Positions 40,778 to 64,000 of a DNA stretch of 64,000 bases are shown piece after piece; position 1 is the stretch's first letter; each line of letters starts with the position of its first letter. The DNA is taken from the NCBI GenBank assembly GCA_035571835.1, contig DATNBU010000040.1, positions 1 to 64,000 on the forward strand, written 5' to 3'. Below the pieces are notes generated by a model. It saw only the letters and a list, made by a program, of their open reading frames with translations, was not told the DNA's origin and ran no database searches. Position numbers and translations under genes: made by a program. The DNA is from Candidatus Limnocylindrales bacterium (lineage in GTDB: Bacteria > Desulfobacterota > Binatia > UBA1149 > CAITLU01).

Positions 40778-43700
40778 CTATTCGCACGGCAGGCACGGCG
40801 GGGCACCGGTCTGCCCGACCGCGTAACGCAGAATCGCGAGCGCATCGGTTACATTGATCGTGTCGTTGCCGTTGGCGTCGCACGCGCACGGCACACACAC
40901 CACCGAGCCGACACTGGCTCGAAGCGTGAACAGCGCATCGCCGGCCGTCGTCGCGCCGTCCGCGTTGGGATCGGCGCAGCTCGGATCGATGGCGGCGACT
41001 TCGGACGCGACGACGAACGTGTCGAAGTAACCGTCGTACGGAGCAGTGAGCGTGTGCTGGACCTTGTCGAGCTGGGAGTCGAGAACTTCGAGCTCGTGGC
41101 TCTTCGGGTTCACGCCCGCCAGCACCAGCGTGTCCTCGTCGAATCGCGGGTTGGCCGGGAAATCCGAAGCCGGTTTGTAGGTGACCGTGATCGACGCGCT
41201 GAACGAGTTGTCGGCGAGATCATCGTACACCGACCAGTAGCGCTTGATCGGAATCAGCGCCTGCCGGGTGTCGGCCGCGCGAAGCTCTGCGCGCCCGCTC
41301 GTTGCCACCGCTGCCGCAGCTGCGAACGTGGAACCGTACTCTTCCGCGTACGCAGGAGCTTCGCCGGCATTCGACGTGAACGCGAGCTTCACCGGAATGC
41401 CGGCGAACGCGACCACCGACGGCCCGGCGGCGACGTCGAGCTGGGCGGTCTTCGTCGGAGCGGGGCGTACCGGAATGTCGCCGAAAGTTTTCGCGACGGT
41501 CACGTTGTCGCTGGGCGCGAAAAGACTCGCATACAGGCGCAGCGATCGTGCTTCGGCCGGAAGGTTCGTGTCGATCTGAAGGAACTTCTGTCTCTCGTCC
41601 AATGCGGTCGTGGTCGTGAGCCCCTGGAAGCGCGGGCCGGCGCTCGAGTTGTATTTCTTGATGACCTTGCCGGAAGCGTCGCGCGTTTCGGCAGGGCTCA
41701 TGAAGAGCTGCCAGTTGGTGACGTCCGGAGTTTCGATGCGGTGCTTCGTGCTCATCGAGAACAGCGGAGTCTCGCCGGTCAGGAACCACCCCGGCACCGT
41801 GCCGCGCAGGCTGAATTCATTGCCGTTCTCGCGCAGGATCGCGAACAGCAGGCTGATCGAGATCGAGTTCGCGCTGTCGCGTACGGCGAGGTGCGCCGAA
41901 TCCTTCGTGATCAGCTGGCTCGAATCGTCGGTGGCCTCATACGTGACATACAGCTCGCTGGCCTTGATCGTCTCGATGTCGCGCAGCGGGAACCGGATCG
42001 TGACGGGTTCCTCGTACAGCTGCTGGAATCCGGCCGGCGCCGTAAACGTGCGATCGGCAATCGATGCGAGGACGGTTCCAGTGCCGGTTTCGCGCTCGAC
42101 GACTGTGACATGCGCATGCACCGAAGAGTTCGGCGACGTGTAGACGAAACGCAGCTTCGCGTTGATGTCGGTGCCGCGAATCAGAGCTGCAGGAGTGCAG
42201 CCGGAAACGTCTCCCTTGCCGATGCATTCGAGCTGGAACTTGCCGCGCGCGGGGTTCACCGCGAACGCGACGGTGTTGGAGGTCGCAGGCAGGATGTCGC
42301 CCGGCGGGACGATGCGCGCCTCGACGGTGATCGCGTCCGTGTACTCCGGCACCACGACCTGGATCGGCGGAATGTTGACATCGTGTGACGCCGCACCGAT
42401 CGCAACGTTCGTACCCGGTGGATTGAGGATCTGCCCGTCCTGGTCGCGCACGAGCACTTGAAGGGTTCCCGTCGGCGTCGAAAGCAGGTCGTAACGGACG
42501 ATGTCGACCGTGATCGTCACATTGCTCTTCGCCGCAAGCGGCGGAGGGACGTCCGTCGTGGCGCTGATCTCGAGCGAGTCGATCACCTTGACCGACGCTC
42601 CGACAAACGGCTCGTAGTCGATGCCGTTGCCGACGTTGAGGCCCTGGCCGCGCGCATTCGTGAACCCGTCGGCGTTCGTGGACGTGTCGTGCGGTCCGCT
42701 CTCGTGGCCCCAGTAGTTGCCCTCCGCGTTGACGCGGATTCCGGCCGTGTTCCACAGAGGGTCGCTCAGCTCCGGGCCGGAACCGAGGCCGACGCCCTCC
42801 AGCGAAAAGCGGTTGTTGTTGATCCGCAGCTTCGCCAGCGCAGCAACGGACGGCTCCGGCAGGCTGAACGGCGCGGAGACGATGATCGGATGGGCAAAGT
42901 TGCCGACGACGTTGTCCTGGAACGCCACGTCGGCAAGCAGCGGAAGCACGACGCCGACGCCCTCGGCGTGCCCGGTGCCGTGCATGCGGTTGCGGACGAT
43001 CTGCACTTTGTACGGAACCCTCTCGAGCAGCCGCGCACCGAAGAACGTGTCCTGGTACAGAAACCCCTTGCGCGACATCACGTTGTTGTCCGCAATCACC
43101 GTGACGCCGCCGGCCGGTGCAGGAACCTCCTTGTGATCTGCAGTGTAGGGGATCTGTCCCCAGTCCGGCCCGAACACGACGGCCGTTCCGTCGCCGGTGA
43201 ACGTGTTGCGCACGACGGTCGGCGACGTGCCGCGCAGGTCGAGGGCACCGGGGCCGCCGGTGACGATCTCGAACCGATTGTCTGCAATCTCGGTCGTGGC
43301 GCCGGCCACCAGCGGCGTCGTGTTGTACGTGAACGGTCCGGTCTGGTTGCTGCTGATGCCGCCGAACTGGACGAAGTCGTTGCCGGTGATTTTGATCGAG
43401 CCGACGTGCCCGATCATCGCGATGTAGCGCAGCGTGCTGTTGCTCAGCACGTCGCGGTTCGACCCGGAAAGGCGCAGCCAGATTCCGGGTTTCGGCGTGG
43501 CCGCCACACCATCGGTATCGTCGCCGACATCGTCGCGGACGTCGGTGATGAGCGCCCCGTCCACGAGCAGCGTCGCGTTATCGGCCACCTGGATCGCAGT
43601 TCCGCCGAAGGCCGGTGGCACGCAGGCGGTCGGAGGCTCGCTGCCGTTGTCCGTGCAGGACTGGGCAATCTTGACGATCGCTCCCGGATCGATCCGCAGC

Positions 43701-44032
43701 GTGATTGGTTCGTACTTGTTGGTCGTGAAGTTGAACGGCCCGGCGACGGTGTAGTTCCCGTCAGTCACGTGGACGTCGCTGCCGCTCCAGACCACGACGC
43801 CGTTCTTCACCCCGTCGCTGTCTTTCCCCTGCACGCCGTCTTCGTCGCCGGCGGAAATCCGATGCAGGATCCGCGCCGCGCGTACGGTGACCGGCGACGC
43901 GGCCACAAGTGCCAGCGAAGTGAGAAGATGCGCCAGCGCCGTGAGAAGGCACGCACGCGCAGCGAGAGGGCAGGCCAGCACGGCGACAGGCCGCGCGCAT
44001 GTCGAGAAAAGGTACCGGATCCGGCGGAGCAT
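40778..44032 (-). CDS. Large secreted protein with parallel beta-helix region and dockerin-like Cys doublet
   Basis: 1084 residues. N-terminal hydrophobic signal region; residues about 85-480 carry repeated short strands with NNRF/NNV turns (DNRFEIVTGG, RNTFTGDG, DNNVMSRKGF, RNRMHGTG, NNNRFSLEG), typical of right-handed beta-helix/pectate-lyase-like proteins; then Ig-like repeats. The C-terminal 65 residues have two EF-hand-like loops bracketed by Cys: DPNADGATTAGDALFTLRASVG, then CDANGNDTINVTDALAILRYAVG. Likely surface or secreted polymer-acting protein; substrate unknown. Confidence 0.8.
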   Translation of the reverse strand: MLRRIRYLFSTCARPVAVLACPLAARACLLTALAHLLTSLALVAASPVTVRAARILHRISAGDEDGVQGKDSDGVKNGVVVWSGSDVHVTDGNYTVAGPFNFTTNKYEPITLRIDPGAIVKIAQSCTDNGSEPPTACVPPAFGGTAIQVADNATLLVDGALITDVRDDVGDDTDGVAATPKPGIWLRLSGSNRDVLSNSTLRYIAMIGHVGSIKITGNDFVQFGGISSNQTGPFTYNTTPLVAGATTEIADNRFEIVTGGPGALDLRGTSPTVVRNTFTGDGTAVVFGPDWGQIPYTADHKEVPAPAGGVTVIADNNVMSRKGFLYQDTFFGARLLERVPYKVQIVRNRMHGTGHAEGVGVVLPLLADVAFQDNVVGNFAHPIIVSAPFSLPEPSVAALAKLRINNNRFSLEGVGLGSGPELSDPLWNTAGIRVNAEGNYWGHESGPHDTSTNADGFTNARGQGLNVGNGIDYEPFVGASVKVIDSLEISATTDVPPPLAAKSNVTITVDIVRYDLLSTPTGTLQVLVRDQDGQILNPPGTNVAIGAASHDVNIPPIQVVVPEYTDAITVEARIVPPGDILPATSNTVAFAVNPARGKFQLECIGKGDVSGCTPAALIRGTDINAKLRFVYTSPNSSVHAHVTVVERETGTGTVLASIADRTFTAPAGFQQLYEEPVTIRFPLRDIETIKASELYVTYEATDDSSQLITKDSAHLAVRDSANSISISLLFAILRENGNEFSLRGTVPGWFLTGETPLFSMSTKHRIETPDVTNWQLFMSPAETRDASGKVIKKYNSSAGPRFQGLTTTTALDERQKFLQIDTNLPAEARSLRLYASLFAPSDNVTVAKTFGDIPVRPAPTKTAQLDVAAGPSVVAFAGIPVKLAFTSNAGEAPAYAEEYGSTFAAAAAVATSGRAELRAADTRQALIPIKRYWSVYDDLADNSFSASITVTYKPASDFPANPRFDEDTLVLAGVNPKSHELEVLDSQLDKVQHTLTAPYDGYFDTFVVASEVAAIDPSCADPNADGATTAGDALFTLRASVGSVVCVPCACDANGNDTINVTDALAILRYAVGQTGAPPCLPCE

Positions 44033-44192
44033 CGGCGTTTTCTAGCCAGCCGCACGGCGCCAAACCAGAGGGAATCGCAAGTTTCTGTCGCGGGGGGCAA
44101 GCGGTTCGGGCGATCTCGACACATCCCGGGATTGCTGGCAGGAGTCGCACGCTCAGTGTGGTGCCCTGGGATTCCGCTGCAGCCGCCGCAAT

Positions 44193-44816
44193 ATGTCGCG
44201 TAAAGCAATCGGCATTGTTCTGCTGATGATCGTTGCCTTCACCGGCTGCGCAGATACCGGCGGACGCTATCGCCTGCGCGTCGATCCCGCGTCACGCTAT
44301 AACTTCCGGTACGTGCAGGACCCGGGCAGCGGCCTGTGGGTGCATCGCGAGTGCGAAGTCCGCGTCAGCGTGAAGCGGCGACTGCCCGATCCGATCAGCA
44401 GCCCCGAACATGGGGATCTGCTCCACAGCTCCCGGTTCGAACCTGGATCGGTCGGCACCGGGAACCTGAGCCCCACGAAATTCGTGATCGAGAACGGCTA
44501 TCGCGTGTGGCGATTCCAGGAGCTGCTTGGCGAACACGACTTCACCGGCAAAGCCGCCTTCGGGATCCAGGTGGAGTGGCCGGTCAAGGACGGTCCGTCG
44601 CGCGAGGAACCGCTGGAGCTGTTCGCGCTGCCGCCGCCCGACAGCATCCCTCCCGATCAGTGGTCAACGTGGCGGACAGCGGACCACAGCCGGCTCGACG
44701 CATTCGGCTGGTGGAACGAGGTGAGCGGCGCGCCGCCGGAAGCGATGCCCGAGATCCCGTTTCCGTTCGAGCTGCGCTTCCGGCTGCTGCTGAAGGATCA
44801 TCTCTACGTCGACTGA
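44193..44816 (+). CDS. Lipoprotein of unknown family
   Basis: 207 residues. KAIGIVLLMIVAFTGCADTGG has a lipobox (FTGC). The body has aromatic-rich segments (FRYVQDPGSGLWVHRECEVRVSV, YRVWRFQELLGEHDFTGK, FPFELRFRLLLKDHLYVD) suggesting a beta-sandwich. Divergent from the beta-helix gene with 160 bp between starts. Confidence 0.75.
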   Translation: MSRKAIGIVLLMIVAFTGCADTGGRYRLRVDPASRYNFRYVQDPGSGLWVHRECEVRVSVKRRLPDPISSPEHGDLLHSSRFEPGSVGTGNLSPTKFVIENGYRVWRFQELLGEHDFTGKAAFGIQVEWPVKDGPSREEPLELFALPPPDSIPPDQWSTWRTADHSRLDAFGWWNEVSGAPPEAMPEIPFPFELRFRLLLKDHLYVD

Positions 44817-45130
44817 CCGACCTGGCCTGTCTGGCTCAATGCAGCTCGCAATCCTTCGTCGGGCGCGAGCGGCTCGCGTGCATCTCGTCTGACGTCCAGC
44901 GGTTGCCGTGCGCGGTCACGGCACGATCCGGTACGTCGTCATCATTCCTGCTTTGATGTGATCCGAGACGTGGCAGTGCAGCATCCGCAACTGAGGGCAC
45001 CAGATTTCCCCCGCCGGAGCGAGTACGGAACATCGAGTCCCGCACCCGCTCAAAGTTCGCCGTTCGTGTTGACCCCGCTTGAACTTGGGCGCTACGCCGG
45101 AGTCGAACCTACGAGCGACAGGAGGTCACA
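44817..45130. other. 314-bp intergenic stretch
   Basis: Contains the multicopper-oxidase remnant described separately; otherwise no gene. The right end has the AGGAGG site used by the Cys-rich secreted protein. Confidence 0.6.
44916..45030 (-). pseudogene. Remnant of a multicopper oxidase C-terminus (ceruloplasmin/hephaestin-like)
   Basis: On the minus strand a frame ending at TGA 44916-44918 reads GEIWCPQLRMLHCHVSDHIK, then AGMMTTYRIVP. HCHVxDHIxAGM is the copper-binding C-terminal signature of multicopper ferroxidases. Nothing upstream continues the domain, and CPQLR interrupts the expected Trp-to-His spacing, so only a fragment survives. Confidence 0.6.
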
Positions 45131-45625
45131 ATGAAATTCCTCATGACCGGAGCTTTCACACTGTTGGGCGTTCTCTTCTCCGCGCAGATCGCGTTCGCCG
45201 GATGCACAGCCGATGACCCGGACGGAACCAAGCTCGCCGCTGCCCGCGCGCAGGTCGCGGCGGACTGCGTGTGCGATCAGTCCGATCCTCCCGCGGTCAA
45301 CCACGGCGACTACGTCAGTTGTGCGGCCGGCATTGCCAATGATCGCTCTTCGCTGGATCGGGCGGATCCGAATTACCTGCCGCCGACCTGCAAGGGTCCG
45401 GTCAAGAAATGCGCGGCGAAATCGGCGTGCGGCAAGCCGGGATTCGTGAGCTGCTGCAGAAGCGACGGCAGCAGCGGCTTCAAGTGCAGCGCGAAGAGCA
45501 GCGCAGCGGCGTGCACCGACAAGGGCGGCGTCGCGGACGCATGTTCGAGCTGCTGCGACGCGTGCGGCGCGAATCGGACCGGCCCGTCATGTCCGGTGCC
45601 GACGACGACCACGACGGTACCGTAA
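45131..45625 (+). CDS. Secreted Cys-rich protein
   Basis: 164 residues with GGAGG nine bases before ATG. Signal peptide ends near IAFAGC. The mature part has about 18 cysteines with pairs CVCD, CCRS, SSCCDACG and CKGPVKKCAAKSACGKPG, suggesting disulfide-rich extracellular folding. It ends in PTTTTTVP, a Thr-rich tail like the Thr linker in the partial protein at the right edge. No family recognised. Confidence 0.78.
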   Translation: MKFLMTGAFTLLGVLFSAQIAFAGCTADDPDGTKLAAARAQVAADCVCDQSDPPAVNHGDYVSCAAGIANDRSSLDRADPNYLPPTCKGPVKKCAAKSACGKPGFVSCCRSDGSSGFKCSAKSSAAACTDKGGVADACSSCCDACGANRTGPSCPVPTTTTTVP

Positions 45626-45642
45626 GGTCGACAGCGCTTTTG

Positions 45643-45679
45643 CATCAGCCCTTCGCGCGCAATGCGAGGAGGGCTGATG
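45643..45679. terminator. Convergent hairpin between two secreted-protein genes
   Basis: CATCAGCCCT and AGGGCTGATG pair around a 17-nt loop between convergent genes, fitting a bidirectional terminator. Confidence 0.55.
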
Positions 45680-45697
45680 GCCAGGACCAGGGCGATA

Positions 45698-46168
45698 CTA
45701 CGGGCAGGCCGCGACGGCCGGATTCGCCACGTTCGTCCGCTTGACGGAAAACTTGCAGACCGTCACGCCTTCTTCGATGCTGTGCGAGATGTACGTGATC
45801 CGGCCCTTGAGCTTGCCCGAGCCATCGGTCGGGTCGGTCTTGACGACGAACGCGCCGGCTTCTCCGAAGTTCAAGCTCGAGCTGCACGGATGCAGTCCGA
45901 CCTGTCCGGCAATGGGATCGTCGATGTCGGCAACCGCCACGCCGTTCCAGTTACCGGCGAGAAATCCGCCGGCGAGATTAAAATTCAGATCGGTTCCTGT
46001 CTGCGTGATGCTGATCGTCACGTCATACTTGTCCGAGAATGCCGTGCCGGTAAAGAATGCGCACTTCTCCTTTCCGGCCCACGTGCCAGTCACATCGAGC
46101 GCGTAGGACGTACTGGCTGCAAGCGTCGACGCAACAACGGCGAGAGCAAATAAAGACCTCAGTTTCAT
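45698..46168 (-). CDS. Small secreted protein of unknown function
   Basis: 156 residues. Signal peptide MKLRSLFALAVVASTLAAS...SYA, then DVTGTWAGKEKCAFFTGTAF, DVTISITQTGTDLNFNLAGG and TYISHSIEEGVTVCKFSVKR, a beta-barrel-like pattern with three cysteines. Family not recognised. Alone on the minus strand. Confidence 0.7.
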   Translation of the reverse strand: MKLRSLFALAVVASTLAASTSYALDVTGTWAGKEKCAFFTGTAFSDKYDVTISITQTGTDLNFNLAGGFLAGNWNGVAVADIDDPIAGQVGLHPCSSSLNFGEAGAFVVKTDPTDGSGKLKGRITYISHSIEEGVTVCKFSVKRTNVANPAVAACP

Positions 46169-46228
46169 TTCGGAACCTCTCCTCGGGCCTGTCCGGCTGA
46201 CGACTGATCACCTCCCGTCCGGGATGTG

Positions 46229-47119: not shown

Positions 47120-47165
47120 GACAGAATCTCCATTGCCGGCGGTCCGGACTGCATGGTGGAAAGCA

Positions 47166-47789
47166 TCACGATGCGGACTGGCGCCGGCGCGCAGGCCGGC
47201 TCTTCGGTGCGGCGCCAGTCATCGTGTCGATGAGCGTCTCGACGGCCCGCGCATAAGCGTGGACGTCGAGCGCAGGGTCCCAGACCTGCTGCAGGATCAG
47301 ACCCTGGAACAGCGACACGACCAGGCGTGCGGTCGCGGCCCCGTCGATGCCGGGAATGCGGCCGAGCAGGGCGGAGAGCGCAGCAAGAGGCTCATCGAGC
47401 CCTTCGTGAACCACACGCATGACGCGCGGGCTGCGAAGGGCCTCGCTCCATAACTGAACCGTTACGCGCCGCCACGCCTGTTCTGCCGGATCCGTCAGTC
47501 GCTGCAGGAATGCATGCACGAGATCGTGCAGCGCGTCGCCGACGTCTTCGCGGGCGGCTGCGTCGCGCAGCGCCGCCAGCTCCGCGGCGTGATGGCGCGT
47601 CGCAATGGCTGCGATCAGGTCTTCCTTGGTGGCGAAATAGCGATAGAGCGCGCCCGGCGACATCTCCGATTCGGCGACGATGTCCTGCATCGTCGTTCGG
47701 TGGAATCCCTCGCGCGCGAAGCAGCGCATCGACGCGGCCAGGATCTGCTCGCGCCTGCGGTCGAGATATTCGCGGCTTACGCGCGGCAT
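47166..47789 (-). CDS. TetR-family transcriptional regulator
   Basis: 207 residues from ATG 47787-47789. N-terminal HTH: RREQILAASMRCFAREGFHRTTMQDIVAESEMSPGALYRYFATKEDL. Its start overlaps the end of the upstream methyltransferase by 13 bp, so both are one operon, and an operator-like inverted repeat lies in front of it (48622-48648). The ligand-binding part has no named match. Confidence 0.88.
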   Translation of the reverse strand: MPRVSREYLDRRREQILAASMRCFAREGFHRTTMQDIVAESEMSPGALYRYFATKEDLIAAIATRHHAAELAALRDAAAREDVGDALHDLVHAFLQRLTDPAEQAWRRVTVQLWSEALRSPRVMRVVHEGLDEPLAALSALLGRIPGIDGAATARLVVSLFQGLILQQVWDPALDVHAYARAVETLIDTMTGAAPKSRPARRRQSAS

Positions 47790-48613: not shown

Positions 48614-48621
48614 CGGTTCCT

Positions 48622-50149: not shown

Positions 50150-50186
50150 TTGAGCTTAACGTCCCCGCCCGGTCGGATGGACATCG

Positions 50187-53407: not shown

Positions 53408-55570
53408 ATGAAACTCTGGCATCCGTCCGCATCTGTCGGTCTTGCGCTCGCGATGGCGATCACGCCGGCCCACGCGGAAAAGAAGGCGCCGGCAACGCCG
53501 CACACGCCGAACATCCTGCTCATCGTCATGGACGACGTCGGGATCGACCAGATGAAGACCTTCGGTTACGGCGGCGATTCGCCTCCGGCCACGCCGAACA
53601 TCGAGAACATCGCCGATGCCGGCATTCGCTTCCGCAATGCGTGGGCGATGCCGGCCTGCACGACGAGCCGCGCCGTCATGTACGACGCCCGCTTTCCGTT
53701 CCGCACCAACGTGCTCGGCGCGCTCGGACCGGACGACCTCGCGAACTCGATGGTCTCTCCGTACGAGGTCACGACACCGAAGCTGCTCGCGACGCGCGGC
53801 TATGACAGCGCACTGTTCGGCAAGAGCCACACGACACTTCAAGGCCACGATCCCGCCGGCCTTGCCGGTCCGCACGTGCTCGGCTGGAACTACTTCGCCG
53901 GCTGGCTCGATGAGACCGGCGACCCGGCTTCGATCGACGTCACGGCCGGCGGCGTCGCTTCACCCGGCAAGATTTATCCGTGCGGCTACGTGCCGAGCTC
54001 GAAAGTCGGCGGCGCCGACAGCGGCGCATGCTACATGGCCGACGGCTCGTGCAGCGAGCTCACGACCGAGGGCGGCGTGCCTCCCGGAAGGATCTGCCGC
54101 GACCGCGGCGGCATCCTCGATCCGGACAAGAGCTGCGCAGTGCCCATGCCGGCCTACGTCGACTTCAGCCTGCTGAGCGGGCACTACGTTTCGCCAGTCA
54201 CGTACAACCAGCCCGATGGTCGAGTCGACGACATCCCGTCGACCGATCCGCGCGCGCGCCAGTTCCGAGCCGACTTCGTCGTCGACGAGGCGGTGCGGTG
54301 GATCAACTCGCGACCGAAGAACAAGCCGTGGATTGCGTCGGTCAACTTTGCGTCCGATCACACGCCGCTGATGCAGCCGCCTTACGATGCACCGGTGGAA
54401 GGAAACGCCGCGAGCAGCGACATGAACTGCCTCGCGCCGCAGGCGCAGCAGCCACTGTCGGACATGCTGATCGAATCGATGGACGGCGAGATCGGACGCC
54501 TGCTTGTCGACACCGGCCTCGCGCGTCGCGACAAGAACGGCGGGCTCGTCTACCAGCCGCACGCAACCGACACGATGGTGATCATTCTCGGCGACAACGG
54601 AAGCCTTGGCGCAACCGTCAAGACTCCGTTCAACGTCGTGCGGTCGAAGGGCACCGCGTACCAGACCGGCGTCTGGGTTCCACTGATCGTCTCCGGCCCG
54701 CTGATGCGAGGGCCGGCGCGCAGCAACTCGCACATGATCAACGTGGCCGATCTCTATTCCCTGTTCGGCGAGATCGCCGGAATCGACGACGTGCAGGCGG
54801 AAGTGCCCCGGCCGCTCGATTCGGAGCGGATGCTTCCTTACATCATCAACCCGAAGCAGAAGGCGATCCGCAAGTTCAACTTCACGCAGGTCGGCGTGAA
54901 TCTTCAGGCCAACGGCTCGATCAACGGCCCGTGCACGATTTCCGGCACATGCACGCAGATTCCCGTCACCAAAGGCGTGTGCGAAGACAACGGCGGCATC
55001 TGGTGGGGCAAGGGGCACGATCCGTCGATCACGCACAATCCGGATCCGGACGGGTTCAAGCTGTGCTGCGAGGTCAACAAGTTCGTAATCGACCAGGGCT
55101 GCGATCCGCAGGCGCCCGGCTGTCCGTACGGAATCACGCCGCTGGTCTCGATCGGAATCCGCGACAAGCATTTCAAGATCGTCAAGAATTCCGTGACGAG
55201 CTACGTCTCGCAGGAAGAACCGTGCCGCGACGACACCCAGACCGAGTTCTACACGATCGATGAAGCCGCACCGGCGCCCGATCTCGACGATCCTGGCGAC
55301 GATCTTCTGACCGGCGTTCTGACGCCGCGCCAGCAGGCGAGCTACGATGCGCTCTCCGCGAAGCTGACCGAGCTGCTGGCGTCCGAGCCGGCCTGTCCGG
55401 GCGACGGCAACATCGATTACGTCGTCGACCAGGACGATCTCGACGGCTGGAGCCAGTACAGCCAGGCAGGTCAGTCGAGCGTCTTCGATTTCACGCTCGA
55501 CGGGCTGACGGACGGTGACGACCAGGCCGTCATCCAGGCAAATCTCGGAACCGATTGCCGGTTGCCGTAG
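53408..55570 (+). CDS. Secreted sulfatase-family protein with dockerin-like tail
   Basis: 720 residues from ATG 53408, six bases after GGAGGAGG. Signal peptide (ITPAHA), NILLIVMDDVGIDQMK metal site, and CTTSRAVMYDARFPFRTN at the formylglycine position (usual core CxPSR; here Thr replaces Pro). IILGDNGSLG and HMINVADLYSLFGEIAGI follow. Several Cys-rich inserts (YPCGYVPSS, GGVCEDNGGIWWGKG) are atypical. The end (GDGNIDYVVDQDDLDGW...DGLTDGDDQAVIQANLG) resembles two dockerin EF loops. Family clear, substrate unknown. Confidence 0.82.
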   Translation: MKLWHPSASVGLALAMAITPAHAEKKAPATPHTPNILLIVMDDVGIDQMKTFGYGGDSPPATPNIENIADAGIRFRNAWAMPACTTSRAVMYDARFPFRTNVLGALGPDDLANSMVSPYEVTTPKLLATRGYDSALFGKSHTTLQGHDPAGLAGPHVLGWNYFAGWLDETGDPASIDVTAGGVASPGKIYPCGYVPSSKVGGADSGACYMADGSCSELTTEGGVPPGRICRDRGGILDPDKSCAVPMPAYVDFSLLSGHYVSPVTYNQPDGRVDDIPSTDPRARQFRADFVVDEAVRWINSRPKNKPWIASVNFASDHTPLMQPPYDAPVEGNAASSDMNCLAPQAQQPLSDMLIESMDGEIGRLLVDTGLARRDKNGGLVYQPHATDTMVIILGDNGSLGATVKTPFNVVRSKGTAYQTGVWVPLIVSGPLMRGPARSNSHMINVADLYSLFGEIAGIDDVQAEVPRPLDSERMLPYIINPKQKAIRKFNFTQVGVNLQANGSINGPCTISGTCTQIPVTKGVCEDNGGIWWGKGHDPSITHNPDPDGFKLCCEVNKFVIDQGCDPQAPGCPYGITPLVSIGIRDKHFKIVKNSVTSYVSQEEPCRDDTQTEFYTIDEAAPAPDLDDPGDDLLTGVLTPRQQASYDALSAKLTELLASEPACPGDGNIDYVVDQDDLDGWSQYSQAGQSSVFDFTLDGLTDGDDQAVIQANLGTDCRLP

Positions 55571-55663: not shown

Positions 55664-58600
55664 ATGCCGCCGCAGCCTGGTCAGAGCGTCGTTCGCTTCG
55701 GTTCGTTTCGCGTCGACATGGCGAACGAGCGGCTCTGGAACGGCTCCGACCCCGTCACGCTTCGGCCGAAAACCTGGCAGGTTCTGCGACATCTCGTCGA
55801 ACATGCCGACCGGCTCGTCAGCAAGCATGAGCTTCTCGACGCGGTGTGGACCGACGTGGCCGTCGAAGAGAAAGCCGTCAATACCTGCATCGGCGAGATT
55901 CGTACGGCGCTAGGCGACAGCTCGCGCCGCCCGCGGTTCATCGAGACGGTGCAGCGGCGCGGCTTTCGTTTCCTTGCGTCGCCGAGCGTGGATGCGGCCG
56001 ACGGAACGGGGACGGGGCAACACGTGCGGCCGGCGTTCATCGGGCGCTCGCACGAGCTCGGATCACTGCTGGCGCGACTTCGCGGCGGCGCGGGAAATGC
56101 GACGGTCACCGTGGTTCGCGGAGCAGCGGGCATCGGCAAGAGCCGCCTCGTCCGCGAGGCGACGGAGCGCGCCGGCGTGCGCACCCTGGTCGGGCAATGC
56201 ATCGAAGGCGGCGGCATTCCGTATCTGCCGTGGGTCGAGATGATCCATCAGCATCTGCGCACGCGTTCGTCGACGGAGACGGCAGTAACCCCGGCGGCTG
56301 CCGAGCTCCAGCGCCTGATCCCGGGACTGCAGCCGGATTCGGGCGATCCGCTGCCGGCGACGACGGATCCGGAGCTCGCGCGGCTGCGATTGTTCGAAGC
56401 GCTCGCGGCATTCTTCGAGTCTGCTTCGCGCGACGGCCCCGTGGTGCTCGTGCTCGAAGACGTCCACTGGATCGACGCGTCTTCGCTGCATGCGCTGCAG
56501 GCGCTGGTGCCTCGGCTCGCCGCGAGCACCGTGCAACTGGTCGCAACGCTGCGTGACGAGGACGCCGAGCCCGGGTCCGCGGTGCGAAACGCCCTCGAAG
56601 CGTTGCGCCGGCGCGCCATCGTCGTCGAGGTGCCGCTGCGCGGGCTGGCCGCGAGCGAGACGCGTGAGCTGGTCGCCGATCTTGCCGGCCCACTGATTCC
56701 TCCTGCATTTGTCGCGCGGATTGCCGACAGCAGCGAAGGCAGTCCGTTCTTCGTCGAGGAGATCCTCCGTCACTATGGCCAGGACGCGACGCGCGAGGCC
56801 GGCGATGGTGATGCGGGCCCTGCCGACCTCCACCTTCCCGACAATGTCATCGAGATTTTCGAGCGCAGGATTCGCCACCTTTCGCCCGCGGCCCGGCGTC
56901 TCGTCGACGCAATCGCCGTCTGCGGTCGCGACTGCGAGGAGCCGCTGCTCGAGCTTGCCCTCGACATGCAGGACGCCCGGCTTGCCGCTGCGGCCAGCGA
57001 AGCCATCGATCTCAGGATCCTGCGTGAAAATCCCGGGAGCCCCGGCCGTTACGGATTCGTGCATGCGCTGATGTCGGTGGCGCTGCGCCAGCGTCTCGCA
57101 CCGCCTCGTCTTCGCGAGCTTCACGCGAGCATCGCGGACGCCGTGATCGCGACCAGGGCCGACGCCGGCGAGCGTGCCGCCGAAGTCGCCCGTCATCTCG
57201 AGCGCGCCGTGCCGAAAGTGCCGGCCATGCGCGCGATCGGCGCACTCCTCGAGGCTTCCGAGCATGCGGCGCACGGGCTCGCTTACGAAGACGCCATCGA
57301 GCATTGCGAGCGGGCGCTGTCGCTCGCACGTGCGGCAGCAACCGGAACGAACGAGCATCGCTGTCTGCCCGAGCTCCTGGTGCGTTACGCTGAGGCACTT
57401 CAGAAAATTGGCCAGGCCGAAAACGTGGCGGCAGCGTTTCGTGATGCTGCCGCCGTCGCCCGTCAGGCCGCAGAGCCGCAGTGGCTCGCGCGTGCGGCGC
57501 TCGGCATGGCGACGATCTGGGACTTCGAGGCCCCGGACGTTCGCGGTTACCTCGAGGACGCACTCGAATGTCTCGGCAACGACGCCGCGCCGCTGCGCGC
57601 GCGTCTGCTCGCGCGGCTGTCCGTCGTGCTCTACCCGCACGCCGGCACGCGGCCGCGATGCGAATCGTTGAGTACGCAGGCCGTCGAGCTCGCACGAAGC
57701 GTCGGCGATGCCACGCTGCTCGCGCAGACTCTCGTCGATTGGCTCGCGGGGCAGTGGTATCTCGACAACCTCGCCGCGCAGGACGCCGTCAGCGAGGAGC
57801 TGATCGATGTAGCAGGGCGCAGCGGGGACGGTGCGCTGCTGGCCACGGCGCACGGCTGGCGCGTGGTGATCGCGCTGTGCCGCGGAGAGATCGACCGTGC
57901 CGAAGCGCACTGCGAGGCGCTGTGCGATCTCGCGCAGCGCCTCGGACAGCCGACCTATCGATGGTGCGGCCTGTATCTGTCGGCGACGCTGGCGCTGCTG
58001 CATGGCCGGCTCGACGCTGCAGAGCGCTTCGCGACCGAGGCATTCGACATCGGACGCACCGCCAGCCCGCAATCGGCAACCATCGTCTATTTCACGCAGA
58101 TGGTCTCGATCCGTCGCGAGCAGAACCGGATCGGCGAGCTGCTCCCGATGCTGGAACAGAACCCGGCGAGCATGAGCAGCGACGCGCTCGCCTGGAATCT
58201 TCCGCACTTCTACATGGAAGCCGATCGCGTCGAAGACGCGGCTTCGGCATTCGCGCGTGCGTGTTCACTCGGCTTCGACGCGATGCCGGGCGAGAATTCG
58301 CGCAATCGCCGGCTGCTCACGCTCGGCGCCATGTCGCTGGCGTGCGCCGCGCTCGGCGACAAGGCCGCGGCGGCCCCTCTGTACGAGATCGTGCGCCTGG
58401 AGTCGCATCGATGGGCCGTGGCCGGTTTCGGTGCGGTCAACTACGGGATGGTCGAGAACGGCGCCGGAGCGCTTGCGGCGTGCCTCGGCGATTACGAAGC
58501 GGCGGTCGGACATTTCGAACGCGCCATTGCCGAGTATGAGCGCAAGAACGTCCCGATCGCGCTTGCGCGGGCATGCTGTCTTTACGCCGATGCATTGCTG

Positions 58601-58735
58601 CGCCGCGGATCGCCGGGCGACCCGCAGCAGGCGTCAGCGCTGCTTCAGCGTGCAGAGCTGCTTGCCGACGAGCTCGGGCTCGTTCGCGTGCGCGAGATGG
58701 CAAGGCGCGTGCGCGACGGCGCTTCGCGTCCGTAG
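55664..58735 (+). CDS. Large transcriptional regulator: winged helix, AAA-type ATPase, TPR (paralog 2)
   Basis: 1023 residues from ATG 55664. Winged helix about 10-105 (LRPKTWQVLRHLVEHADRLV, VQRRGFRFL), Walker A GAAGIGKS (153-160), Walker B LVLEDVHW, then a long TPR-type solenoid. Domain order and the PKTW motif match the 34535-37510 gene, but the two diverge beyond the N-terminal third. It follows the sulfatase by about 90 bp on the same strand. Confidence 0.85.
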   Translation: MPPQPGQSVVRFGSFRVDMANERLWNGSDPVTLRPKTWQVLRHLVEHADRLVSKHELLDAVWTDVAVEEKAVNTCIGEIRTALGDSSRRPRFIETVQRRGFRFLASPSVDAADGTGTGQHVRPAFIGRSHELGSLLARLRGGAGNATVTVVRGAAGIGKSRLVREATERAGVRTLVGQCIEGGGIPYLPWVEMIHQHLRTRSSTETAVTPAAAELQRLIPGLQPDSGDPLPATTDPELARLRLFEALAAFFESASRDGPVVLVLEDVHWIDASSLHALQALVPRLAASTVQLVATLRDEDAEPGSAVRNALEALRRRAIVVEVPLRGLAASETRELVADLAGPLIPPAFVARIADSSEGSPFFVEEILRHYGQDATREAGDGDAGPADLHLPDNVIEIFERRIRHLSPAARRLVDAIAVCGRDCEEPLLELALDMQDARLAAAASEAIDLRILRENPGSPGRYGFVHALMSVALRQRLAPPRLRELHASIADAVIATRADAGERAAEVARHLERAVPKVPAMRAIGALLEASEHAAHGLAYEDAIEHCERALSLARAAATGTNEHRCLPELLVRYAEALQKIGQAENVAAAFRDAAAVARQAAEPQWLARAALGMATIWDFEAPDVRGYLEDALECLGNDAAPLRARLLARLSVVLYPHAGTRPRCESLSTQAVELARSVGDATLLAQTLVDWLAGQWYLDNLAAQDAVSEELIDVAGRSGDGALLATAHGWRVVIALCRGEIDRAEAHCEALCDLAQRLGQPTYRWCGLYLSATLALLHGRLDAAERFATEAFDIGRTASPQSATIVYFTQMVSIRREQNRIGELLPMLEQNPASMSSDALAWNLPHFYMEADRVEDAASAFARACSLGFDAMPGENSRNRRLLTLGAMSLACAALGDKAAAAPLYEIVRLESHRWAVAGFGAVNYGMVENGAGALAACLGDYEAAVGHFERAIAEYERKNVPIALARACCLYADALLRRGSPGDPQQASALLQRAELLADELGLVRVREMARRVRDGASRP

Positions 58736-59141
58736 CGGATCCAGCAGTCCACGCGATCGGCGTACCGACCGGTCGATGGCGCACGATGTCGATCTGATGC
58801 TTGCGCAGGACGTCCATCGTGACCTTGCGCGTGTTCTCGTTCGTGCCCGCCCGTCTGCGTGGTGCGGGAAGAAATCCTCTGTAAATGGAGCACAAGCGTG
58901 GGAAAGGGTGCGGGATGATTTCCCGCATACTGCGGTAACTTCGCGCACCACTTGAAACACGGCCCAACCCGTACGGGTAGGCCGCGAGGTCACTCCATTG
59001 CATCTGTGAAGCCAAATGCCCACTTCGATGAGGGGTGTGCTTGTCGAATTCGCCCCCGGACGCTCTTTTGGCCTCGCAATGGCGCACGATTTGCAATGTC
59101 GGGAACGGGGAACGCGACTCAACTGCTGGGGGAACGGAAAG
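58736..59141. other. 406-bp intergenic region
   Basis: No gene I can support. A minus-strand frame reads MDVLRKHQIDIVRHRPVG near 58780-58830 but has no family resemblance and its downstream part is degraded. The right end leads to the Hsp20 ribosome site. Confidence 0.45.
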
Positions 59142-59657
59142 ATGAGCAGCAAGATCGACACGACCGGAACGATGGAAGGTGCGCAGGAGCTGGCGCTTCA
59201 GGAAGTGGAGAGGACGGCGGGGGATCGTCCGGTCGCTGTGCATGACGAATTGCTGCTCGAGTCGCAGGGCGCTTCGCTCGACGGACGCGAAGGGGATCGC
59301 GTCCGGCCGAGCGACTGCTCGAGCATCGCTGCGATTGTCTCGCCGCCTGCGGACATCGCAGAGACCGACGAGGTGGTGCTGTTCAGCATCGAGCTGCCGG
59401 GGATGAGCGAGAAAGATGTCGAGGTCCAGATCAGTCCCGACCTGCTGGTGATTCGCGGGGTGCGGCGGTCAGACGATCCGGGGATCACGCTCTGGCACCT
59501 GCGCGAACGCTCGACCGCCATCGTCGAGCGAATGATCCTCATTCCGGACGGCGTCGATACCGAGGACTGGTCGATGCAGTTCCGCGACGGCGTTCTTACC
59601 GTGCGCATGGCGAAATCCTGCCGGCAGAGAAAGAAGCGGCGCGTTTACGCTTCGTAA
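59142..59657 (+). CDS. Small heat-shock protein, Hsp20/alpha-crystallin family
   Basis: 171 residues from ATG 59142, preceded by GGAACGGAAAG; an in-frame ATG at 59016 lies in the untranslated-looking region. N-terminal acidic/Gln part, then an alpha-crystallin domain from about 65: IAETDEVVLFSIELPGMSEKD, LLVIRGVRRSD, and FRDGVLTVRMAK, with the Asp-Gly-Val-Leu-x-Val pattern intact. ATP-independent holdase. Confidence 0.9.
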   Translation: MSSKIDTTGTMEGAQELALQEVERTAGDRPVAVHDELLLESQGASLDGREGDRVRPSDCSSIAAIVSPPADIAETDEVVLFSIELPGMSEKDVEVQISPDLLVIRGVRRSDDPGITLWHLRERSTAIVERMILIPDGVDTEDWSMQFRDGVLTVRMAKSCRQRKKRRVYAS

Positions 59658-59670
59658 ACACCTTCGGTTT

Positions 59671-59713
59671 CGAACGCGGGCGTCCGGCCAAGGGGGGCGG
59701 ACGCCCGCGTTCG
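59671..59713 (+). terminator. Strong hairpin after hsp20
   Basis: CGAACGCGGGCGTCCG and CGGACGCCCGCGTTCG form a perfect 16-bp stem with an 11-nt loop 14 bp after the stop. No T-run is visible. Confidence 0.65.
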
Positions 59714-59952
59714 AGCCGCAAGCCGACGAGCGCTGCGTGTCATGACGCTGCCTCGGCGCGGGACTATCGTTGCGCGCCGGCATCTCCTGCGATAGCTCCG
59801 AGCCATCGATCCGGGCCTCGCGGCCTTCGTCTGCGTGACTTCCATCGAAGCGCTGCGCAGACGGCGGTTGCGCATCGCCCGGACGTACTCTCGGACAAAG
59901 CGGTGGGAATGCTCGTCGACGAAGCCACGCGCCTGGTAGTCGGGTATCCGCG

Positions 59953-60288
59953 ATGAAGGGTAGCCTGGGGATTTGTCTCGTTGCTGCCCTGCTGCTTGCC
60001 GGCTGTACAGCGACCGTTGCGCAAAAGCCGGTCCGCCCGGAAAGCAGCCGCGTCGAAAAAGCCCCGATCAAACCGGCGCCGGTGATTCCGCGCGCCGAGC
60101 ACTGCGGGCCGGCGATGGATACGAAGGTGTGGAAGGTCCAGTGCTCGCAAGGAGACCTCGCCATGATGTGCCGGAAGTCGGATCCGACCGACCGCCGCTG
60201 CGCCTACAAGCGGTCGGGCAAGTATCGATGGACTTACGGCTCCTACTGCCACCGATCGCTGGCCTGCTACAAGCGGGCTTGCCGCTGA
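59953..60288 (+). CDS. Small lipoprotein
   Basis: 111 residues. LVAALLLAGCTATVA has a clean lipobox (LAGC). A Cys-containing C-terminal part: HCGPAMDTKVWKVQCSQG, MMCRKSDPTDRRCAYKR, SYCHRSLACYKRACR, seven Cys that may pair. Family not recognised; outer-membrane or periplasmic by signal. Confidence 0.78.
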   Translation: MKGSLGICLVAALLLAGCTATVAQKPVRPESSRVEKAPIKPAPVIPRAEHCGPAMDTKVWKVQCSQGDLAMMCRKSDPTDRRCAYKRSGKYRWTYGSYCHRSLACYKRACR

Positions 60289-60335
60289 GCGGCGATCCTT
60301 CGCCTCGAGCGCGCGCCCGTCCTAGATTTCGCCGC

Positions 60336-61007
60336 GTGGAACAACAGAAGAAGAGTCTTTACTTCGAAGCGGCGACGATGCCGGCATCCGGCGCGTGGGC
60401 GCAGAAACGACGCCTCGCCGCCAATCTGCGAATCATCATCGACCGGCTGGTTACGAGCGATGCGCCCGAGGAACAGCTTGCCCGCGCCGCCGATGCCGCC
60501 GCGAGCTTTGCCGAATCGCTCGCCGGGCATCCGCATCGCCAGCGAATGTGGGGTTTTGCCGAAAGCGCGAACGCCGGCGTGGGAGCGTTCTTCGACCAGA
60601 GCCCGCTCATCGGCCTGTCGAACCCATTGGCACCGCCGATGACACTCGAAGCCCGGGGAGATCGCGTGTACGGAGAAGTCTGCTTCGGTTCTGCCTACGA
60701 GGGGCCGCCCGGCCATGTGCACGGCGGCTTCGTTGCGGCTGCGTTCGATGAGCTTCTTGGCTTCACGCAGTCGCTCACCGGCAATCCCGGCATGACGGCG
60801 AGTCTCACCGTGCGTTATCGCCGGCCGACGCCTTTGCACGTGACCCTTCGTTTCGATGCGGGAGTCGATCGCGTGGACGGTCGCAAGATCTACGCGTCCG
60901 GTCGAGTCCTCTCCGGCGAAACCGTCACGGCGGAGGCCGACGCCCTGTTCGTTTCTGTCGATCCCGAACGTTTCCAGGCGCTGATCGACGAGGTCCGGAC
61001 GCGATGA
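60336..61007 (+). CDS. PaaI-type hotdog-fold thioesterase
   Basis: 223 residues from GTG 60336. Residues about 115-210 are a 4HBT hotdog domain: GPPGHVHGGFVAAAFDELLG (substrate pocket with HGG and Asp) and MTASLTVRYRRPTPLHV. A helical N-terminal extension of about 100 residues precedes it. Probably hydrolyses an acyl-CoA; substrate unknown. Overlaps the next gene by 4 bp. Confidence 0.8.
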   Translation: MEQQKKSLYFEAATMPASGAWAQKRRLAANLRIIIDRLVTSDAPEEQLARAADAAASFAESLAGHPHRQRMWGFAESANAGVGAFFDQSPLIGLSNPLAPPMTLEARGDRVYGEVCFGSAYEGPPGHVHGGFVAAAFDELLGFTQSLTGNPGMTASLTVRYRRPTPLHVTLRFDAGVDRVDGRKIYASGRVLSGETVTAEADALFVSVDPERFQALIDEVRTR

Positions 61008-61636
61008 GCCAGCCGCTCCATTTCCCGCCCGACTACTCCGAGACGCGCGTGGTCAAGGACGGCACCGAGATCGGCCTTCGCCTGCTGCGACCGCATGATC
61101 GCGATGTGCTCGCGAAGGGCTTCGAGGAGCTCTCTGCCGAGTCGCGCTACACGCGCTTCTTCTCACCGATGAGCAAACTGCCGGAGAAGATCCTCGAGAA
61201 GATGCTGGAGACCGACGACTGGAATCACCTGGCGATCGTCGCGTTCCGCAAGGAAGACGGCAAAGGGCTCGCCACCGGAAGATTCATCCGTCTTGCCGGC
61301 GAGCCGGAGGTCGCGGAGTTCGCCGTCGCGGTCATCGATTCGATGCAGGGTCGCGGGCTCGGCAAGCTGCTGCTCGGCCTGGTTGCGCGAGCTGCTCGCG
61401 AGCGCGGCATCACGCGCTTTCGCGCGCACGTGCTCGCGGGCAACGACGCGATGATCACGCTGCTGCGCGAGCTCGATCCGACGCTCGACGCGACCAGCGA
61501 CGGCCGTTCCATCACGTACGACCTCGACCTGCCGGAGATGACCGACGAAGCCTCTTCCAGTGGTCCGATCTTCGATCTGCTGCGCGCCGCCGGTCGCGGC
61601 CTGGACGTTCTACTTCAGAGCCTGCGGTCGGGCTGA
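61004..61636 (+). CDS. GNAT-family N-acetyltransferase
   Basis: 210 residues. ATGA overlap with the thioesterase. Acetyl-CoA site VIDSMQGRGLGKLLLGLVARAARERGI (Q/RxxGxG/A), DGTEIGLRLLRPHDRD at the N-terminus and FRAHVLAGNDAMITLLRELD after it. The substrate is unknown; the coupled thioesterase suggests a shared acyl-CoA role, as inference. Confidence 0.88.
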   Translation: MSQPLHFPPDYSETRVVKDGTEIGLRLLRPHDRDVLAKGFEELSAESRYTRFFSPMSKLPEKILEKMLETDDWNHLAIVAFRKEDGKGLATGRFIRLAGEPEVAEFAVAVIDSMQGRGLGKLLLGLVARAARERGITRFRAHVLAGNDAMITLLRELDPTLDATSDGRSITYDLDLPEMTDEASSSGPIFDLLRAAGRGLDVLLQSLRSG

Positions 61637-61688
61637 GAGCACTGGCCCGCGCAGACGACCAAGCCGCCGGGCGTCCGGTGCCCGCGCG

Positions 61689-64000
61689 TCATTCCGCGAC
61701 CACGGTCACGACCGGGCTCGGCTGGATCTGGTCGCCCTGATTGTCGGTGGCATCGACGATCGTCACGTGGAAGTCGGCGCTTGCCGGAGTCGCCAATCCG
61801 TAGAACGTGCAGCGCGCAAGCGTCACAGGGCCATGGAACGGGTTCAGGCTGATGATGCCTACCGACAGCAATGCTCTGCCCTGCTGCACATGCGTCGCGG
61901 ACACCACCTGCGGAATCAGGATCTCGCAGTCGGCGGTCTCTCCGATCGGGACGAGATCGCCTGCGGCATCCATGTAGTCGACGTCGAATTGCAGCGCGCC
62001 AAGGCTTTCGTCCGACGTGAGCACGAGATCGATTTTGCGCGCAACGCTGCACGCATCAACGGCCAGCCCGACCGCCACCCGCAGCGTGCCGAGCGCGTCG
62101 ATTGCCGTCACGCGTCCGTCGCCGTTGCGATCGCAGCGCTGCCTGGGGCAGCGCGCGGCAAGCCCGACGGCCTTGCGCAGCACGACCAGTGCGCTGGTGG
62201 CGGTGACTCTCTCGCCATCGCCGGCGGGGCAGACAAGATCGAGTCGGCAGCGGCGCGTGCAGCGGTCGCCGCCGTCGAGGTTGCCGTCGTCGCACTCTTC
62301 TACTCCGGCCCAGACGTAGCCGTCTCCGCAGCGTGCAACTCGGCAACTGGCCAGGCAGGCCGCGTCCCAGTGGCGATCCTCGCCGTCGTCGCATTCTTCG
62401 ACGGTGTTCTGGACGAAGCCGTCGCCGCAGACCGCGATGCGGCAATTGCTCAGGCAACCGTCGTTCTCGTTGGAATTGCCGTCGTCGCACTCCTCGAGGT
62501 CACCGTGCTTTGCGCCGTCGCCGCAAACGGCGTTGCGACAGTCGGACAGGCAGTCATCGGTATCGTCTTCGTTGCCGTCGTCGCACTGCTCCGCACCGGT
62601 GACGGCCTCGCTGCCGCACCCGGTCGGACGGCACGTCGAATCGCATCCGTCGCCGTCGACCGCATTGCCGTCGTCGCAGGTCTCGCCGACGTCGCCGGTG
62701 CCGTTGCCGCAGCCGCCGATTGTGCGTGCCAGCCGGACAGGACCGATGAGTCCTTCGTATGGCGAAAGCATCGTATCGGCGAGCCACAGCACGGCCCACG
62801 TGTTCGCGCCTGCATGCTGAATTTTCGGGTTGCGGTCGACCAGCGCATCGACGGCCTCGGCGGGATCCACCAGCGCCGGCATCGTCCACGTCGCCCCGCT
62901 GTCGCTGGAAAAGGACGTGACGACATCGGCGTCGAAGCCGCCGCCGCTCGAGTAGCTGCTCCACGCGATGGCGAACTCGCCGTTGTCGCCTGCGGCGACG
63001 CTCGGCGAGAAGTCGCCTCCGCCCGTGTCCTCGTGCCACGGCGCGAGCGCGGAAGGCACGGTCCATTCGGACAGAACCGACGGCGACCGCGAGACGAACA
63101 CGCTGAGCTTGCGCTCTTCGAGCGGGTCCGCAACCCAGCCGACGTACGCAAGCAGCCAGCTACCGTCGCGGTTGGCTGCCACGCTGAGCTGCTGCGGCGA
63201 ACGGTGACGTGTGCGAAACAACTTCGCGGCGGCCGACCACGTCGAAGCGTTGTCGATCGAATGCGCAGCCGAGATGCCGTCACCGCTCCACGCCACCAGC
63301 CAGTTGCCGGAATGGTCGGTCGCGACAGTCACGGCGTTGACGGTGTAGCAGGGCACCTCGTCCAGCGTGGATGCCGGCGACCAGGTCCTGCCGGAATCGA
63401 CGGAAACCGACGAACGAATCGCGCAGAACGACGTGTACTTGTACTCGTCCGGAGAATCGATGTAGCGCGCGCCGAAAAATCCTTCTGACCACGCCGCCAC
63501 CCAGCGTCCGCCGGCGCCGCCTGCGACCGCAACGTTGGAAAGCTTGTACTGCTGCTGATCGAAATCCGGTTTGTGCTCGACGGCATAAAGAACCTGTCGG
63601 TCGCCCCAGTTCTGACCGGCATCCGTCGAGCGATTGAACTGCAGATGCTCGTCGCGATAGTCGGCGCCCGCCTGGATCCAGACGCCGTTGCCATCGGTGG
63701 CGACGGTTGCTTCGTAGACATCGTCGAACGCGACCGGTCCCGGTTGCAACGGCCGCGCCGGCGGCGACAGCCATCGCCGCGCGTCGTCGAGCGAGGTCGC
63801 GACAACCGGCTGGTAGGACTTCTCGTCGACGTAGGCGGTCCATCCGGCGGCCCACCGCCCTTCGGCATCCCCTGCAAGGCTGAAATATGGTGGTGCGGAG
63901 CTGGACAGCGAAAAGAGCTGGCGAGTCGAGACGAAGCGAAGCGCATCGGGATCGAGAGTAGTTGTGGTCGTCGTGGTGGTCGTAATGCTGTCGTCGAGGC
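61689..64000 (-). CDS. Secreted protein: BNR-like region, five DUF4215-type Cys repeats, dockerin-like module, cohesin-like C-terminus (5' end outside window)
   Basis: At least 769 residues; the frame is open to the right edge, where a Thr-rich linker (eight Thr) is read. About 110-380 has sialidase/BNR-like strands (TDAGQNWGDRQVLYAV, SVDSGRTWSPAS, IDNASTWSAAA). Then five Cys repeats of the CGDG...EECDDGN type, a dockerin-like doublet (VTATSALVVLRKAVGL...CDRNGDGRVTAIDALGTLRVAVG), and a final about 115 residues (KIDLVLTSDESLGALQFDVDY ... ARCTFYGLATPASADFHVTI) resembling a cohesin domain. Surface or secreted. Confidence 0.75.
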   Translation of the reverse strand, partial: LDDSITTTTTTTTTLDPDALRFVSTRQLFSLSSSAPPYFSLAGDAEGRWAAGWTAYVDEKSYQPVVATSLDDARRWLSPPARPLQPGPVAFDDVYEATVATDGNGVWIQAGADYRDEHLQFNRSTDAGQNWGDRQVLYAVEHKPDFDQQQYKLSNVAVAGGAGGRWVAAWSEGFFGARYIDSPDEYKYTSFCAIRSSVSVDSGRTWSPASTLDEVPCYTVNAVTVATDHSGNWLVAWSGDGISAAHSIDNASTWSAAAKLFRTRHRSPQQLSVAANRDGSWLLAYVGWVADPLEERKLSVFVSRSPSVLSEWTVPSALAPWHEDTGGGDFSPSVAAGDNGEFAIAWSSYSSGGGFDADVVTSFSSDSGATWTMPALVDPAEAVDALVDRNPKIQHAGANTWAVLWLADTMLSPYEGLIGPVRLARTIGGCGNGTGDVGETCDDGNAVDGDGCDSTCRPTGCGSEAVTGAEQCDDGNEDDTDDCLSDCRNAVCGDGAKHGDLEECDDGNSNENDGCLSNCRIAVCGDGFVQNTVEECDDGEDRHWDAACLASCRVARCGDGYVWAGVEECDDGNLDGGDRCTRRCRLDLVCPAGDGERVTATSALVVLRKAVGLAARCPRQRCDRNGDGRVTAIDALGTLRVAVGLAVDACSVARKIDLVLTSDESLGALQFDVDYMDAAGDLVPIGETADCEILIPQVVSATHVQQGRALLSVGIISLNPFHGPVTLARCTFYGLATPASADFHVTIVDATDNQGDQIQPSPVVTVVAE

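Follow-up and report, generated by a model that had tools for sequence, protein, structure and literature searches.

A candidate non-cellulosomal cohesin–dockerin assembly system with Cys-bracketed modules and lipoprotein-type anchors in a bacterium of the Binatia

The window, a stretch of 64,000 nucleotides at the start of contig DATNBU010000040.1 from an assembly named Candidatus Limnocylindrales bacterium (GCA_035571835.1; Binatia in GTDB), encodes three apparently secreted proteins with EF-hand-like doublets near their C-termini. In one of them, a cohesin-like domain follows the doublet in the same chain. A preliminary description read all three doublets as dockerin-like and suggested a non-cellulosomal adhesion or assembly system on the cell surface. 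Do the three tails belong to one module family, is the neighboring domain a cohesin, and what kind of system would the two modules form?

The first protein, labeled a beta-helix protein in the earlier work (40778–44032, minus strand; 1084 aa), yielded a sub-threshold dockerin as its only Pfam match. Its C-terminal module (40793–40978, minus strand) comprises two loop-helix repeats with four bracketing Cys residues and matched the own-genome profile with E = 6.9e-24. The second protein (61689–64000, minus strand) runs off the window and is complete in the contig, with 1071 aa from the listed ATG (C40:61689–64904). It consists of a BNR-like body, DUF4215/myxo_disulf_rpt repeats in five stretches, a dockerin module and, right behind the latter, a cohesin-fold domain (61692–62042, minus strand; A3 profile E = 4.8e-40). 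The dockerin module (62049–62231, minus strand), whose limits are those of the profile match (62052–62225, E = 1.1e-20) widened to the first and last Cys of the translation, has a degenerate first calcium loop. Scored alone, the two window dockerins reach 16.8 and 15.1 bits, compared to a Pfam dockerin cut-off of 22.9. With both window copies removed from the profile, the module of the beta-helix protein was recovered with E = 1.2e-19 and that of the second carrier with E = 3.2e-17. The cohesin-fold domain matched a profile of the other cohesin-like domains, itself removed, with E = 1.2e-33. By profile, the doublet in both proteins is a dockerin, and the Cys-bracketed doublets and the cohesin-like domain proposed for these two proteins were thus upheld.

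The third protein is a sulfatase (53408–55570, plus strand) with an EF-hand-like tail, in which a doublet is flanked by two outer Cys residues (55391–55567, plus strand). Against the module profile, this tail gave no match at E ≤ 100 even with the filters switched off. Pfam dockerin had none at E ≤ 1, and when the tail was used as a query against the 7 family genomes at E ≤ 0.01, it found itself alone. The assignment of the sulfatase to the dockerin module family, as made in the preliminary description, was ruled out by these searches.

The module was then defined from an alignment of 20 copies, made up of 18 of the 24 Pfam matches in the genome (L007, L011, L014, L015, L019 and L022 being omitted) and the 2 window copies. 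It spans 62 positions, with the pattern CGDANxDGxxTAxDALxxLRxAVGxxxCxxxxCDxNGxGxVTAxDALAILRxAVGxxxxxxC. The two calcium-loop and helix repeats that characterize the Pfam dockerin family (PF00404) are present in the module family, and the module profile matched the solved dockerins of CelS (E = 1.5e-5) and XynY (E = 1.3e-4 and 2.6e-4). With Pfam Dockerin_1 itself, 24 genomic places matched at E ≤ 0.001, each exceeding the cut-off either by itself or in combination with its neighbors. The genome-wide count proposed in the preliminary description gave at least 136 dockerin places at E ≤ 0.01 in the 5.46 Mb source genome, where the best 150 of 232 candidates were scored; none of 5885 reversed ORFs matched at this level in the control run alongside the profile without the window copies. 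More than 100 other proteins thus carry the module, contrary to the possibility, also raised there, that none would.

The stretches analyzed contain 127 dockerin matches in 124 ORFs, corresponding to 126 places, since the stretch C29_115880 (from residue 109) was matched twice. Where the respective positions were aligned, Cys was found at C1 in 100% of 62 copies, at C28 in 92% of 111, at C33 in 93% of 124 and at C62 in 100% of 115. All four Cys residues were aligned in 53 of the 127 matches. A further 39 lacked the aligned first position alone, and several of these have a CGQP-type start further upstream. A structure model of the dockerin reached a pLDDT of 58, with two helices at the expected places only, and the dockerin part of the dockerin–cohesin tandem model likewise had a low pLDDT.

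Twenty-three of the dockerin matches are shorter. Of these, 22 fit a pattern in which one repeat lies between two Cys residues, with no third Cys inside. (As the pattern itself forbids an intervening Cys, the fit of 22 copies out of 23 is all that this result conveys; the 23rd is a frame-cut copy.) Twenty of the 22 stand behind a signal-like hydrophobic run. Two additional single-repeat copies outside the 23, C26_22450 (27–54) and C39_17382 (139–169), were aligned across the middle of the model. Because the single-repeat copies have one Cys at either end, each dockerin repeat most likely has its own disulfide, C1–C28 and C33–C62. If so, the dockerin would be braced against unfolding, and might find use as a protein tag. 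We also considered a clasp disulfide between C1 and C62, which was dropped, since the single-repeat copies with a Cys at both ends point to pairing within the repeat. Such half-dockerins occur in 22 ORFs of the source genome (e.g., C8_219493_220401 and C45_214941_215702), mostly behind a signal-like start. In one carrier cluster, 12 of 13 members are half-module carriers, in frames of 248–474 aa.

A first, two-row profile of the cohesin-like domain gave 31 places at E ≤ 1 in the source genome, and a 26-row profile, for which all 74 candidates were scored, recovered 33 domains at E ≤ 1e-4. The 26 rows represent 25 of 29 cohesin domains (C6_8953, C6_10170, C16_56003 and C24_27635 were omitted) together with the second copy of C13_71461, which had been under an earlier score limit. 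Two Cys residues, the two of the window domain, are invariant across the 26 aligned domains and would provide the cohesin with one disulfide of its own. Pfam Cohesin (PF00963) had no match in the source genome or in any of the three family genomes drawn. When the cohesin profile was compared with solved chains by sequence, no cohesin was found, and two chains of an unrelated RNA-binding protein appeared at E = 1 and 1.3.

An AF2 model of the window dockerin–cohesin tandem, made with a 16-row alignment from the window and three named loci, had block means of 88–98 pLDDT in residues 71–185. In a Foldseek search with the model of the cohesin domain, 2xdh, a non-cellulosomal cohesin from Archaeoglobus fulgidus, ranked first (probability 1.00, E = 1.8e-3); no match reached E ≤ 0.001, and the lower ranks included non-cohesins such as YcnI and p53. 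With VIA-align, 2xdh was the closest solved fold among the chains compared (Z 11.3, rmsd 2.7 over 102 residues), yet with a sequence identity of 14%. Of the 50 entries listed, 47 have a cohesin in the title; two of the remainder are Clostridium thermocellum scaffoldin complexes and one is a GH84 interaction module. The table covers the chains ranked by Foldseek, and other folds may lie outside it. Another family of the same class provided a bridge: in genome G056, three of five cohesins tested exceed the Pfam cut-off, and alignment of the G056 cohesin profile to the new domain, in which both Cys residues are in register, reached E = 1.4e-5 (the reversed control gave E = 0.098, and 60 column shuffles gave E = 0.0051 at best).

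From the model, we are confident in the prediction of a cohesin fold for the final domain of the second carrier, and we take the new domain to be a cohesin that has diverged too far to match the Pfam profile. As it has no Pfam Cohesin match and is linked to this family by the bridge alone, we class it as a cohesin-fold domain and not as a member of PF00963. The structure and profile checks suggested in the preliminary description thereby gave a predicted cohesin fold on the one hand and a doublet that matches solved dockerins on the other. One G056 locus, L236 (G056:C2:132286–135162), contains near-identical tandem cohesins with frame changes between the copies, which may reflect recent amplification or assembly trouble.

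The stretches analyzed from the source genome comprise 138 ORFs with either module: dockerin is the sole module in 112 of these and cohesin in 14, and the remaining 12 carry both. They include 35 cohesin matches in 26 ORFs, and the genome has about four dockerins for every cohesin. Seven of the 12 two-module ORFs, among them that of the window, end in dockerin–cohesin, four are cohesin–dockerin and one is cohesin–cohesin–dockerin. More elaborate chains were seen in relatives. L220 has four cohesins and a dockerin, and in L218 a dockerin stands between the second and the third of three cohesins. At 5263–11034 of L219, from a lake genome, three ORFs with at least two cohesin matches each surround one dockerin ORF.

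A strict lipobox pattern was present in 11 of 14 cohesin-only ORFs vs. 8 of 109 single-dockerin ORFs (Fisher p = 1.5e-8), the pattern being home-made and indifferent to inner or outer membrane. By eye, two more of the 14 are plausible lipoproteins, one of the 11 (C24_27635) is doubtful, and one ORF has lost its start at a contig end. The lipoprotein-type ORFs have up to three cohesin matches each, and a run of at least three Thr residues was found in 8 of the 14 cohesin-only ORFs. To our knowledge, neither lipoprotein anchors nor a Cys pair in each dockerin repeat is a feature of cellulosomes.

Both modules were present in 7 of 7 family genomes, with 11–33 cohesins and from 22 to at least 134 dockerins (at most the best 150 dockerin candidates per genome were scored). 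The two counts are correlated in these seven related genomes (rho = 0.90, p = 0.006), and their correlations with genome size were not significant (rho = 0.61 and 0.68, n = 7). In an even draw of 198 genomes from the phylum, the cohesin profile matched in three, all of this family, and there was no match in four other genomes listed for the same class. At E ≤ 1e-8, the dockerin profile matched in the same three genomes, with a single additional match in G153 (E = 5.5e-9). Pfam cohesin, by comparison, occurred in 16 of the 198 genomes, none of this family, and Pfam dockerin in 24, including three family genomes. These draws were used for presence and not for number, as at most the best 22 to 32 candidates were scored in rich genomes. 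The lengths of the ORFs in L218–L220 (905 aa, 507/290/448 aa and 885 aa, respectively) were found again in G198, G174 and G201. These loci were not counted as extra genomes, because their probable source is three of the seven. Since the new profiles match almost exclusively within the family, while Pfam cohesin and dockerin occur elsewhere in the phylum, the braced pair appears to have branched off, at the level of the family, from an older cohesin–dockerin stock that Pfam recognizes. In another family of the same phylum, L247 (G025:C19:96981–97292) and L250 (G153:C22:198260–198565) each have a Pfam-positive cohesin at the C-terminus of a protein that appears secretin-like by eye.

The nearly identical, narrow distribution of the two modules bears on the question of whether they meet at all. 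The doublets might be no more than small caps or spacers of exported proteins, stabilized by disulfides and calcium, with the cohesin-like beta-sandwiches binding something else. DUF4215 and other Cys-rich repeats are already used as disulfide-rich spacers in these proteins, the dockerin model was poor, and the genes showed no neighbor enrichment, with 2 of 14 cohesin-only genes within 1 kb of a dockerin gene (1.45 expected, p = 0.44) and 5 of 14 within 5 kb (3.3 expected, p = 0.22), all of which would suit this explanation. It sits badly with the shared distribution, with the 12 ORFs that carry both modules in one chain, with layouts that resemble those of scaffoldins, and with listed fold matches that are cohesins and not beta-sandwiches in general. 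We consider it unlikely.

The position of the dockerin within its carriers speaks to another alternative, that the doublet tags its carrier for sorting by a machine for secretion or envelope attachment. The C-terminal domain of type IX secretion (T9SS) substrates is a tag of this kind. Our own signal pattern identified a start in 76 of the 109 single-dockerin ORFs and none in 33. The module is followed by no more than 20 residues in 54 of the 109, as would be expected for a tag, but by more than 80 residues in 51, and the single-repeat copies, 20 of 22, come after a signal-like start. Because its position is free, a binding module suits the doublet better, and we regard a sorting tag as very improbable.

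With the module masked, the 112 carriers fell into 65 clusters, 53 of them singletons. In the 69 shorter carriers (25 of 29 Pfam families listed), the commonest match was Lcl_C, in 12, followed by PD40 and Laminin_G_3 in three each, with single matches that included a secretin, GSDH, a CAP domain and Pectate_lyase22 (E = 2.1e-7). The 43 longer carriers (25 of 36 families listed) included RCC1_2 in six, Disintegrin in five, FG-GAP_2 in three, an MtrC/MtrF-type domain in two, one subtilase and one PETase-like match. NCBIfam, applied to the 43 longer carriers alone, identified two OmcA/MtrC decaheme cytochromes (best E = 8.8e-110).

This inventory is difficult to reconcile with a true relative of the cellulosome, dedicated to the breakdown of polysaccharides. 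Such a relative would share the module pair and the scaffold layouts, and a multi-cohesin scaffoldin is indeed represented by L220; three carriers match Laminin_G_3, a model from the concanavalin A-like lectin/glucanase superfamily. However, neither a glycoside hydrolase nor a CBM is among the Pfam families listed for the 112 carriers (25 of 29 and 25 of 36), and among the same families the combination of dockerin-borne plant-fiber enzymes with a cellulose-binding module is missing, the Pectate_lyase22 match being the sole counter-lead. This match may itself be a propeller, since the propeller models PD40 and DPPIV_N match in the same set. A cellulosome relative is therefore, in our judgment, the most remote of the explanations.

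The best reading is a non-cellulosomal cohesin–dockerin assembly system with lipoprotein anchors, in which dockerins would bind cohesins, and we consider it likely. It retains the core of the earlier suggestion for two of the three window proteins and leaves the sulfatase outside. In this system, more than 100 mostly exported proteins bear a dockerin, either C-terminally, internally or behind a signal-like start. Lipoprotein-type proteins with one to three cohesins, several of them with Thr-rich linkers, would act as anchors, and proteins with one or more cohesins followed by a dockerin as scaffolds or adaptors. Large BNR/DUF4215 proteins that end in dockerin–cohesin, one of them in the window, would serve as chain-extending adaptors. 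The dockerins would plug into the cohesins through Ca2+-dependent binding, and the lipoprotein base would thereby carry a layer composed of many kinds of protein, including adhesin-like ones, beta-propellers, cytochromes and hydrolases. A large part of the proteins that the bacterium exports is thus probably attached to its own envelope by means of a cellulosome-like kit. The Ca2+ dependence, the surface exposure and the biological use of the layer are what we infer from these modules, and placement on the cell surface is suggested by the lipoprotein-type signals and the types of carrier. Adhesion, as proposed in the preliminary description, is a plausible function, and the window dockerins may bind the window cohesin.

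Non-cellulosomal cohesin–dockerin pairs have so far mostly been proposals from genomes (PMC6461901, PMC8542988, PMC9012536, PMC10553843). The planctosome was proposed from genomes for the Nemodlikiaceae, a group of freshwater Planctomycetes (PMC6461901). There, as here, no link to cellulose was found, and the proposal comprises a cohesin anchor, an adaptor with dockerin and cohesin, and peptidases that would be held by cohesin–dockerin contacts. Its complexity was likened to that of simple cellulosome systems, and its anchoring was ascribed to a lamin-tail domain (PMC6461901), whereas the source genome has at least 136 dockerin places, 33 cohesins, lipoprotein-type anchors, conserved Cys residues in both modules and single-repeat dockerins. 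In Candidatus Stygibacter (Cloacimonadota), a scaffoldin-like protein with tandem cohesins is accompanied by dockerins on exported enzymes (PMC8542988). That system, as described, has one scaffoldin of 3755 aa with CBMs and a C-terminal surface domain, and the enzymes named as bearing dockerins are GH18, GH57 and peptidases (PMC8542988). In the source genome, several anchors of the lipoprotein type, all small, take the place of one large scaffoldin, and most carriers are of other kinds. A non-cellulosomal system has been proposed for ANME archaea, in which a protein can combine a dockerin with as many as five cohesins and for which a role in cell–cell contact was suggested; the usual carriers are ABC substrate-binding proteins and some S-layer proteins (PMC9012536). 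The ANME domains were detected by standard libraries (PMC9012536), in contrast to the lack of any Pfam Cohesin match in the source genome. For the sulfate-reducing partners of ANME, a genome-based non-cellulosomal system has also been proposed (PMC10553843).

Cellulosomes share the module pair, the scaffold layouts and a repertoire size of the same order, and differ in that their carriers are plant-fiber enzymes. Among the largest, as reported, that of Ruminococcus flavefaciens FD-1 has 222 dockerin proteins (PMC2930009), and P. cellulosolvens combines 78 cohesins with dockerin ORFs that number over 200 (PMC5590126). With at least 136 dockerins, a single lineage thus has more than half as many, and anchors, adaptors and carriers are all visible in it. 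Similar, smaller systems, the planctosome and others, have already been proposed in the accounts cited; the one here would be a large, Cys-braced and lipoprotein-anchored variant. Among the matches listed in the full-text literature (titles and abstract openings, with most subscription journals outside), none concerned a Cys-bracketed dockerin family or a comparable lipoprotein-anchored set of cohesins. As the cohesin half of the pair escapes Pfam, apparently orphan dockerins elsewhere may have hidden partners.

A more far-reaching possibility, which we put forward tentatively and hold to be somewhat improbable as a whole, is that the pair provides the general envelope coat of the entire family. 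This coat would be a calcium-switched layer of exchangeable proteins, built on one set of lipoprotein sockets that are invisible to standard domain libraries, with more than 100 disulfide-braced plugs in the richest genome, including half-dockerins and decaheme cytochromes. The lineage presumably has an outer membrane, given the lipoprotein-type signals, the secretin match and the MtrC-type cytochromes. The OmcA/MtrC-type carriers are, judged from their sequences, electron-transfer proteins that bear a docking tag. Two dockerin carriers, G000:C41:21637–24438 (L079) and G000:C28:39907–42639 (L098), have 10 CXXCH motifs each.
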